Of a stretch of DNA of 64,000 nucleotides, positions 53,045 through 55,836 are shown one piece after another (the first letter of the stretch is position 1; each line of letters opens with the position of its first letter). The notes under the pieces were generated by a model that was not told the origin of the DNA, did not search any database, and saw nothing but the letters and a program-made list of their open reading frames with translations. The DNA is from Blastococcus sp. TBT05-19 (GTDB lineage Bacteria; Actinomycetota; Actinomycetes; Mycobacteriales; Geodermatophilaceae): positions 186,001 through 250,000 of the forward strand of contig NZ_QOHI01000003.1 of the NCBI RefSeq assembly GCF_003319095.1. The letters run 5' to 3'. The position numbers and the translations under genes were made by a program.

Positions 53045-53320
53045 TCAGAGCTTCCCGCGGCCCTGGCGCAGCAGCAGCATCCCGAGCGCGGCGCCGTCGG
53101 TGCCGAGCGCCTCGCGGAAGCGGGCGAGGACCTGCTGCTCGCGGGAGAGGTTGAGCCGGGTGCCGCCGCTGGCCTTGCGCAGTTCGCCGATCTCCTGGGA
53201 GACGGCCAGGCGGCGCTGGACCAGGTCGATGATCGCGGCGTCGCACGCGTCGATCTCGGTGCGCAGTGCGCCGATGCGCTCCACGTCGGTGCCGGTGACG
53301 GCGGCGGGGGGCGTGCTCAT
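53045..53320 (-). CDS. aroQ: Chorismate mutase, AroQ fold
   Basis: The 91-residue all-helical enzyme converts chorismate to prephenate, the branch to Phe and Tyr. LRTEIDACDAAIIDLVQRRL and SQEIGELRKASGGTR hold the conserved Arg and Lys residues, and the end LGMLLLRQGRGKL matches actinobacterial enzymes such as Rv0948c. ATG 53320 follows GAAGGAGA. Upstream on the same strand lie a terminator hairpin and a short leader frame with Phe-Tyr-Tyr, which suggests attenuation. Confidence 0.93.
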   Translation of the reverse strand: MSTPPAAVTGTDVERIGALRTEIDACDAAIIDLVQRRLAVSQEIGELRKASGGTRLNLSREQQVLARFREALGTDGAALGMLLLRQGRGKL

Positions 53321-53366
53321 GGGGGTCTCCTTCGGTCGTCCGGCCCGGGACCCCTGAGAACGAGAA

Positions 53367-53395
53367 ACGCCCCGGGCTCCTCGGGCCCGGGGCGT
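53367..53395 (-). terminator. Attenuator hairpin ahead of chorismate mutase
   Basis: On the minus strand the arms 53395-53385 and 53377-53367 pair perfectly over 11 bases, followed by TTTCTCGTTCTC. It lies between the leader peptide stop and the aroQ start, the position of a regulatory terminator. Confidence 0.7.
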
Positions 53396-53411
53396 CTGTT
53401 GCGGCGTGTGC

Positions 53412-53474
53412 TCAGCCAGCGGTGACGGACACCGGATCCCGGTGGCCGTAGTAAAAGCTGACGGTGGCGAGCAC
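53412..53474 (-). CDS. Aromatic leader peptide of chorismate mutase
   Basis: GTG 53474 opens a 20-codon frame MLATVSFYYGHRDPVSVTAG ending in TGA at 53414-53412. Codons 7-9 are Phe-Tyr-Tyr, the end products of the pathway started by chorismate mutase. A hairpin with arms 53430-53435 and 53439-53444 follows the FYY codons, and the terminator begins 16 bases after the stop. The start lies six bases after CAGACT, so it is probably leaderless. Confidence 0.65.
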   Translation of the reverse strand: MLATVSFYYGHRDPVSVTAG

Positions 53475-53480
53475 GGTGCG

Positions 53481-53486
53481 AGTCTG
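53481..53486 (-). promoter_or_regulatory. -10 hexamer for the aroQ leader transcript
   Basis: CAGACT on the minus strand lies six bases before the leader peptide GTG. Confidence 0.45.
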
Positions 53487-53535: not shown

Positions 53536-55836
53536 ATGAGCAGCAGCATCCAGCAGTCCCTGCCCGGTACCGCCGCCCTGCAGCGGTCCGCCTCCGGTTC
53601 GATCGGGCGGGAGCTCGACCGGATGCTCGCCGGCCTCAACGGGCCGCAGCGCGACGCCGTCGTCCACGAGGGCGGGCCGCTGTTGATCGTGGCCGGAGCC
53701 GGGTCGGGCAAGACCCGTGTGCTCACCCACCGCATCGCCTACCTGCTCGGCGCCCGCGGTGTGCAGCCCGGCGAGATCCTGGCGATCACGTTCACCAACA
53801 AGGCCGCCGGCGAGATGAAGGACCGGGCCGCCGCACTCGTGGGCCCCCGCGCGCGGTCGATGTGGGTGTCGACGTTCCACTCGATGTGCGTGCGGATCCT
53901 GCGCGCCGAGGCGGCGAAGCTGGGCCTGAAGTCGTCGTTCACGATCTACGACCAGGGCGACTCCGTGCGCCTCATGACGATGGTCGCCCGCGACCTCGAC
54001 CTGGACGCGAAGCGCTTCCCGGGTCGCAGCCTCGCCGCACAGGTGTCGAACCTGAAGAACGAGCTGGTCGACGAGGAGGAGTTCAGCCCCCAGACGGCGC
54101 CGGAGAAGGTGCTCAAGGAGGCGTACACGCTCTACCAGCGGCGGCTGCGCGAGGCGCACGCCATGGACTTCGACGACCTGATCATGAACACCGCGCACCT
54201 GCTGCAGGCGTTCCCCGACGTGGCCGAGCACTACCGCCGCCGCTTCCGGCACGTGCTGGTCGACGAGTACCAGGACACCAACCACGCGCAGTACGTGCTG
54301 ATCCGCGAGCTGGTGGGTCCGGAGGGCGGGCCCGTCCCGCCGGCCGAGCTGTGCGTCGTGGGTGACGCCGACCAGTCGATCTACGCCTTCCGCGGCGCCA
54401 CGATCCGCAACATCGACGAGTTCGAGCGCGACTACCCGCAGGCGACGACGATCCTGCTGGAGCAGAACTACCGCTCCACCCAGCGGATCCTCAAGGCCGC
54501 CAACACGGTGATCGCGAAGAACACCAGCCGGCGGCCGAAGAACCTGTGGACCGACTCCGGCGACGGCGAGCTGATCGAGGGCTACGTCGCCGACAACGAG
54601 CACGACGAGGCCGCCTGGGTCGCCGAGCAGATCGACGCCCTGGTCGACGAGGGCAAGGCCCAGCCGAAGGACATCGCGGTCTTCTACCGCACGAACAACG
54701 CCTCCCGGGTGTTCGAAGAGGTCTTCATCCGCGTCGGCATGCCCTACAAGGTCGTCGGCGGCGTGCGCTTCTACGAGCGCAAGGAGGTTCGCGACGCGCT
54801 GGCCTACCTGAAGCTGGTGGCCAACCCCGCCGACGTCGTGAGCCTGCGCCGGATCATCAACGTGCCCAAGCGCGGCATCGGCGACAAGGCCGAGGCGTGC
54901 ATCGAGTCCTTCGCCGACCGGGAGCGCATCGCTTTCGGGTCGGCGCTGCGGCGGTGCAGCGAGATCACCACGCTCGCCACCCGCTCGCTCAAGGCGCTGC
55001 AGGAGTTCGTCGCGCTGCTGGAGGAGTTCGAGCAGCTGGTCGAGACCGGCTCCGGTCCGGCCGCCCTGCTGGAGAGCATCCTCGACCGCACCGGCTACCT
55101 CGCCGAGCTGCAGGCCAGCACCGACCCGCAGGACGAGGGCCGGGTCGACAACCTCAACGAGCTCATCTCGGTCGCCGCGGAGTTCGAGGCCGCCAACCCC
55201 GGGGGCTCGGTCACCGACTTCCTGGAGCAGGTCTCGCTGGTGGCCGACGCCGACCAGATCCCGGTCTCCGGCGACGAGGCGGGCGTCGTCACGATGATGA
55301 CCCTGCACACCGCCAAGGGCCTGGAGTTCCCGGTCGTCTTCCTCTCCGGCATGGAGGACGGCGTCTTCCCGCACCTGCGCGCGCTCGGCGACCCGCGGGA
55401 GCTGGAGGAGGAGCGCCGGCTGGCTTACGTGGGCATCACGCGCGCCCGGCAGCGGCTGTTCATCTCGCGGGCGACAGTGCGCACGAACTGGGGGCAGCCG
55501 GCGTACAACCCGCCGTCGCGGTTCCTCGACGAGATCCCGGCCGAGACGATCCACTGGGAGCGGCTGGACCCGACGCCGGCCCCCTCGACCGGCTACCGCT
55601 CCGCGCAGACGCGGGTGGCCGCCACCGGGCTGTCGACCGGCGGGCTGCGCGGCGGCGCCGGCAACCGCCAGGTCATCTCGGTGGAGGTGGGCGACCGGGT
55701 GAGCCACGACGCTTTCGGTCTCGGCACGGTGGTGGAGGTGACCGGCGTCGGTGACAAGGCGCAGGCGACGGTCGACTTCGGCTCCGGCGGCACCAAGCGC
55801 CTGGTCCTCCGCTACGCCCCGCTGGTGAAGCTCTGA
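53536..55836 (+). CDS. pcrA: ATP-dependent DNA helicase PcrA/UvrD1
   Basis: The 766-residue SF1 helicase has Walker A AGAGSGKT at 53-60, motif Ia TFTNKAAGEMK, motif II VDEYQDTN, motif III GDADQSIYAFRGA, motif IV EQNYRST, motif V TLHTAKGLEFPVVF and motif VI YVGITRAR. The C-terminus has a Tudor-like domain (GDRVSHDAFGLGTVVEV) that binds RNA polymerase in relatives. It acts in nucleotide excision repair and clearing of stalled complexes. It diverges from the aroQ leader. Confidence 0.95.
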   Translation: MSSSIQQSLPGTAALQRSASGSIGRELDRMLAGLNGPQRDAVVHEGGPLLIVAGAGSGKTRVLTHRIAYLLGARGVQPGEILAITFTNKAAGEMKDRAAALVGPRARSMWVSTFHSMCVRILRAEAAKLGLKSSFTIYDQGDSVRLMTMVARDLDLDAKRFPGRSLAAQVSNLKNELVDEEEFSPQTAPEKVLKEAYTLYQRRLREAHAMDFDDLIMNTAHLLQAFPDVAEHYRRRFRHVLVDEYQDTNHAQYVLIRELVGPEGGPVPPAELCVVGDADQSIYAFRGATIRNIDEFERDYPQATTILLEQNYRSTQRILKAANTVIAKNTSRRPKNLWTDSGDGELIEGYVADNEHDEAAWVAEQIDALVDEGKAQPKDIAVFYRTNNASRVFEEVFIRVGMPYKVVGGVRFYERKEVRDALAYLKLVANPADVVSLRRIINVPKRGIGDKAEACIESFADRERIAFGSALRRCSEITTLATRSLKALQEFVALLEEFEQLVETGSGPAALLESILDRTGYLAELQASTDPQDEGRVDNLNELISVAAEFEAANPGGSVTDFLEQVSLVADADQIPVSGDEAGVVTMMTLHTAKGLEFPVVFLSGMEDGVFPHLRALGDPRELEEERRLAYVGITRARQRLFISRATVRTNWGQPAYNPPSRFLDEIPAETIHWERLDPTPAPSTGYRSAQTRVAATGLSTGGLRGGAGNRQVISVEVGDRVSHDAFGLGTVVEVTGVGDKAQATVDFGSGGTKRLVLRYAPLVKL

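Follow-up and report, generated by a model that had tools for sequence, protein, structure and literature searches.

A conserved leader with Phe and Tyr codons, probably an attenuator, upstream of the chorismate mutase gene aroQ in Blastococcus and other actinobacteria

The window considered here is the whole 64,000-nucleotide stretch of Blastococcus sp. TBT05-19 DNA that was analysed, and on its minus strand it carries aroQ. The product of this gene scores 102.3 bits against NCBIfam NF005894 (cut-off 73), is also matched by TIGR01808, has M. tuberculosis Rv0948c as its closest solved structure (E 4e-18), and is the only CM_2 match in the 3.92-Mb genome. Upstream, a divergent frame for a UvrD/PcrA-type helicase (named from its sequence) starts with the ATG at 53536 on the plus strand, and all of the leader features sit in the intergenic space between the two. 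The frame beyond aroQ is convergent, so that the leader appears to serve aroQ only. The features, in the order in which they would be transcribed, are as follows:

53481 to 53486, minus strand: -10 element CAGACT, with TGTGG before it (from the sequence; similar hexamer spacing in other families)
53412 to 53474, minus strand: predicted leader frame with a GTG start, 20 codons VLATVSFYYGHRDPVSVTAG and the stop TGA (from translation and conservation)
53454 to 53456, minus strand: putative control Phe codon UUU, codon 7, two codons ahead of the invariant Tyr (from codon counts)
53448 to 53453, minus strand: putative control Tyr codons UAC UAC, codons 8 and 9 (from the comparison of relatives)
53425 to 53449, minus strand: hairpin 1:2 (ACGG.CACCGG / CCGGUG.CCGU), overlapping codons 9 to 17 (from the fold at -15.3 kcal/mol, the consensus and co-evolution)
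53424 to 53437, minus strand: segment 2, the putative 5' strand of the antiterminator, AUCCGGUGUCCGUC (from cognate versus non-cognate pairing with segment 3)
53366 to 53396, minus strand: predicted intrinsic terminator 3:4, GACGCCCCGGGC / GCCCGGGGCGUU (from the fold at -26.8 kcal/mol and the consensus)
53356 to 53367, minus strand: U-rich terminator tail UUUCUCGUUCUC (from the sequence)
53327 to 53332, minus strand: Shine-Dalgarno sequence AAGGAG of aroQ (from the sequence)
53045 to 53320, minus strand: aroQ, monofunctional chorismate mutase of 91 aa (from NF005894, TIGR01808 and the relationship to Rv0948c)

A sequence-only reading of the region had already proposed the succession of a -10 element, a 20-codon frame with Phe-Tyr-Tyr, a hairpin, a terminator and aroQ, and each of these elements is indeed found in the sequence where that reading had placed it. 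The Phe-Tyr-Tyr triplet occupies codons 7-9 and the stop codon of the frame lies at 53414-53412. Hairpin 1:2 is built on the pairing of CACCGG (53444-53439) and CCGGTG (53435-53430) and, across a single mismatch, continues as far as 53449/53425. The GC stem of the terminator pairs 53396-53385 with 53377-53366, its 5' arm (53396-53385) being segment 3 of the putative antiterminator, and is followed by a U tract that is broken by C. The helices 1:2, 2:3 and 3:4 are mutually exclusive, and for the antiterminator of the window two registers of similar energy compete. For the 157-nt leader the computed fold has -78.2 kcal/mol, compared with -64.2 +/- 4.0 kcal/mol for its dinucleotide shuffles (z -3.5). 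The AAGGAG ahead of the aroQ start codon at 53320 lies 34-39 nt past the terminator stem, clear of the alternative hairpins.

Six bases separate the CAGACT hexamer (53486-53481) from the GTG at 53474, so that transcription is expected to begin at or beside the start codon, and a (C/T)(A/T)nnnT hexamer ending 6-7 nt ahead of the start codon is found in nearly all of the leaders of the other families compared. A leaderless start of the leader frame is thus expected, the start site itself being a prediction. The sequence-only reading had considered this unusual for a leader peptide, a reservation that falls away because published start-site data report most of the described leader peptides of Streptomyces lividans as leaderless (PMC8079986). 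A consensus promoter and terminator scan flagged no sites at the leader, since it accepts a promoter only with a -35 box and a terminator only with five T per 8-base window.

The aroQ gene was found in 112 of 115 Geodermatophilaceae genomes, and all of the fetched loci with enough upstream sequence share the same arrangement, represented by 56 distinct leaders. The shared plan comprises a frame of 20-26 codons that starts with GTG and contains Phe-variable-Tyr-Gly, then the hairpin, the stop codon and a GC-rich terminator. Codon 9 is an invariant Tyr, while codon 8 is Tyr, Phe, Ser, Pro or Ala in the relatives: Blastococcus leaders read mostly Phe-Tyr-Tyr or Phe-Phe-Tyr, and Phe-Ser-Tyr or Phe-Pro-Tyr occurs in some Geodermatophilus, Modestobacter, Klenkia and Goekera. 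This variability indicates that the middle codon is not essential; where it encodes Ser, Pro or Ala, as in several genera, just one Phe and one Tyr codon are left. The frames differ in length by whole codons only, all before the Phe. In a 26-codon leader of Blastococcus aggregatus (L034/L008), an in-frame stretch is added before the Phe codon and the core reads Phe-Ala-Tyr. Within the family most base pairs are invariant, and the informative changes are a double change from A-U to G-C in hairpin 1:2 (L068) and changes from G-C to A-U in the terminator. One record labelled "UNVERIFIED_ORG: Bacillus sp. AZ43" (L043) has a Blastococcus-type aroQ locus, and its label therefore looks wrong.

Beyond the family, a covariance model built from 56 family leaders was run on 395 genomes of the class, the clades being named by their content. 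The inspected matches with an aromatic leader precede just two genes, aroQ and a DAHP synthase. Leaders of aroQ related to that of the window occur in Streptomyces-like, Mycobacterium-like and other actinobacterial families, and the DAHP-synthase leaders, which contain MQRNFWRFYGYRP... or MRTAWSFWYGDGP..., in one further family. In the Streptomyces-like genomes (6-11 Mb) the peptide ahead of aroQ reads M-x-x-x-x-T-F-V-F-T-Y-G-N-R-P... About half of the weaker class-wide matches were ordinary terminators or other sequence with no aromatic leader and were discarded. The model also caught short frames with Thr codons, such as MKRAHVTTTPETVPAR, followed by a terminator (L163, L164, L167, L168, L171 and L172), which resemble the published thrL leader that precedes thrS in S. 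lividans.

Within the order, leaders were present at 27 of 40 sampled aroQ loci. They occur at 8 of 10 sampled loci in the Mycobacterium-like genus (its chorismate mutase resembles Rv0948c closely), at none of 10 in its sister genera, and at nearly all in the remaining families. The sister genera without a recognisable aroQ leader (L185-L194) include 2.3-Mb genomes, and the absence possibly reflects a loss. Sampled aroQ loci of several f2 genera (g14, g16, g17, g19 and g21) are likewise without a leader. In the Blastococcus genome itself no second copy of the leader was found, the two other matches being this locus read on the other strand, and no leader with adjacent aromatic codons was found before its class II DAHP synthase, its PF00793 gene or its prephenate dehydratase.

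The codon content of the leaders follows the pathway step of the downstream gene. Phe and Tyr are both present in all 86 distinct aroQ leader peptides, and Trp in only five, in four of which it lies outside the aromatic core, whereas Phe, Tyr and Trp occur together in 17 of the 18 distinct DAHP-synthase leader peptides. The difference in Trp between the two sets has a Fisher P of 3e-14, a descriptive value that is inflated by shared ancestry. Chorismate mutase acts in the formation of Phe and Tyr, DAHP synthase in that of all three amino acids, and this content therefore fits end-product control: the short frame, predicted to be translated, carries codons for the end products of the pathway to which the gene downstream belongs.

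Since the pairs are mostly invariant within the family and the sequences differ strongly between families, the helices were examined by swap tests across clades, in which 25 representatives less than 72% identical were paired either with their own segments or with segments permuted across clades (20000 permutations). Segment 2 with segment 3 gave a mean of -19.6 kcal/mol for cognate pairs against -16.0 kcal/mol for permuted ones, and hairpin 1:2 gave -16.2 against -12.3 kcal/mol; in both cases none of the 20000 permutations was as good. Reversed-segment controls showed no effect (P 0.78 and 0.90), nor did the codons that precede the Tyr (P 0.14), and the part of the 2:3 pairing outside the terminator core co-evolves by itself. 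The sequence-only reading had suggested comparing the regions upstream of aroQ in related actinobacteria for conserved aromatic codons and covarying stems, and both are borne out, the codons being conserved and the helices co-evolving across clades.

These comparisons support an antiterminator made of the 3' arm of the early hairpin, together with the bases after it, and the 5' arm of the terminator. A ribosome extends about 15 nt beyond the first base of its P-site codon. With Tyr9 in the A site it would therefore reach about nt 37-38 of the window leader and end right before the core of segment 2, so that hairpin 1:2 has its 5' arm covered and segment 2 is left free; at the leader stop codon it would cover segment 2. 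The antiterminator of the sequence-only reading used ACCGGG, which belongs to the 5' arm of the early hairpin and would be hidden under the stalled ribosome; this arm of the proposal has to be replaced by the 3' arm, the partner that co-evolves. Folds were also simulated for 55 family leaders, and 64% of the 5' arm of the terminator was paired upstream when the ribosome was stalled, but 2% when it stood at the stop codon. As proof of antitermination the simulation was set aside, as shuffled linkers also pair with the GC-rich arm of the terminator in roughly half of the cases; it is thus non-specific, and the swap tests were used in its place.

The leader is very probably a ribosome-mediated transcription attenuator of aroQ, of the trp/pheL type, whose stalling, termination and response to amino acids are predicted from sequence. 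The RNA would begin at the GTG, and a ribosome would load straight onto the leaderless frame. When charged tRNA-Phe and tRNA-Tyr are ample, the ribosome would proceed to the stop codon and cover segment 2, so that the terminator forms and no aroQ transcript is made. When either charged tRNA is scarce, it would stall within UUU-UAC-UAC and cover the 5' arm of hairpin 1:2; segment 2 could then pair with the nascent 5' arm of the terminator, the terminator would not form and aroQ would be transcribed. Without translation, hairpin 1:2 would form and termination is expected. The core of what the sequence-only reading had proposed, a Phe/Tyr leader on which stalling releases aroQ from termination, is supported by the codons, the match to the pathway at two genes and the co-evolving helices.

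It is conceivable, though unlikely, that the leader is translated and stalls the ribosome while control is mainly translational or through access of Rho, the hairpin before aroQ being only a weak terminator. The interruption of the window's U tract by C would agree with this, as would the Mycobacterium-like leaders, some of whose terminators are weak or were missed by the search script, and the mycobacterial candidate Cys leaders, which were described without clear terminators (PMC1262725). Against it, nearly all families retain a GC stem of 11-12 bp and a U-rich tail behind it, segment 2 and the 5' arm of the terminator co-evolve, and aroQ has a clear Shine-Dalgarno sequence of its own outside the alternative hairpins.

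The peptide itself could instead be the signal, either as an arrest peptide that binds a metabolite or as a microprotein with its own role, and GHRxPVxVxAG does appear conserved within Geodermatophilaceae. However, the conserved residues encode hairpin 1:2, the double substitution in L068 keeps the base pair and changes two residues (H to R and V to A), and the C-termini in other families are unrelated. Furthermore, Streptomyces-like leaders tolerate a frame shift past the Tyr. In two of them (L095 and L107), a one-base insertion after the Tyr codon (a +1 shift) rewrites the C-terminus and leaves the RNA hairpins nearly unchanged. Judged by these comparisons, what is conserved past the Tyr is the RNA and not the peptide; no conservation of the peptide independent of the RNA was found in L095, L107 and L068, and a signalling peptide is very improbable. 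Least probable of all is a T-box or riboswitch that senses the amino acid or tRNA directly, with the short frame incidental, to which the conserved leader RNA and its terminator would be suited, but no Rfam family reaches its gathering score (the best hits, at E 0.13-0.74, are to unrelated sRNAs and lie on the other strand), and the frame, start, stop and aromatic codons are kept across families.

An unexpected feature of the attenuator is the codon at the Phe position. All 43 distinct family leaders, and 51 of 53 aroQ leaders elsewhere, have TTT as the Phe codon two positions ahead of the Tyr, and the DAHP-synthase leaders likewise prefer TTT, and also TAT. By comparison, TTT accounts for 0 of 306 Phe codons in 42 ORFs of the window and 10 of 269 in comparable ORFs beside other leaders, a background that is somewhat understated because these ORFs were those passing a codon-position GC filter, which favours high-GC3 frames. 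One reading of this fixation is that slower wobble decoding of UUU makes the stall more sensitive; another is that the U is kept for an RNA-level reason. A more tentative proposal is that the sensor is tuned by a codon that the genome avoids and that the same tRNA-Phe reads by wobble, so that the attenuator might report on the quality of tRNA-Phe as well as on the amino-acid supply. If so, the stall at UUU would be far more sensitive than UUC-coded genes to a fall in charged or fully modified tRNA-Phe.

The pheL-pheA system of E. coli has a Shine-Dalgarno-led leader, a bifunctional chorismate mutase-prephenate dehydratase and a response to Phe only, and no sequence relation between it and the aroQ leader is expected. 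The likeness is one of principle, as the Phe codons of its leader control a chorismate mutase gene via transcription attenuation (PMC11802643). The nearest published case, by description, is C. glutamicum aroR-aroF (Neshat et al. 2014), an actinobacterial leader of the aromatic pathway with Phe-Tyr-Phe in AroR, for which the cited accounts report that stalling under Phe limitation raises transcription (PMC11802643, PMC7356990). Unlike the aroQ leader, aroR controls a DAHP synthase, a comparison made from its description only; leaders related to that of aroQ do precede a DAHP synthase in other genomes of the class. The leader also resembles trpL1, leuL and ilvL of S. lividans TK24, which are leaderless, several with terminators, and precede actinobacterial amino-acid genes (PMC8079986), and the trp attenuators of Corynebacterium and Streptomyces, with their classical alternative hairpins (Seliverstov et al. 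2005, PMC1262725). Phe, Tyr, aroQ and DAHP synthase are all absent from the eight leader peptides reported for S. lividans by Droste et al. (2021), in which Trp is the sole aromatic amino acid represented (PMC8079986). Nothing further on a leader peptide or attenuation at an actinobacterial chorismate mutase was found in open papers, to which the search was confined, and the novelty is therefore provisional. The class of attenuation is known, while aroQ as its target and the breadth of its distribution appear undescribed in actinobacteria.

As judged from sequence comparison, the leader is an authentic and widely conserved Phe/Tyr attenuator with an unexplained fixed rare codon. One element would thus be shared by many actinobacterial families, in contrast to the earlier survey, which found no conserved RNA structure upstream of actinobacterial Phe or Tyr operons (PMC1262725), and it occurs at two steps of the pathway with codons matched to the products. 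It provides a natural example of a sensing position at which a rare codon has become fixed, and it offers a test of how charged tRNA-Phe and tRNA-Tyr may set the flux into the Phe/Tyr branch, which is a target of strain engineering.
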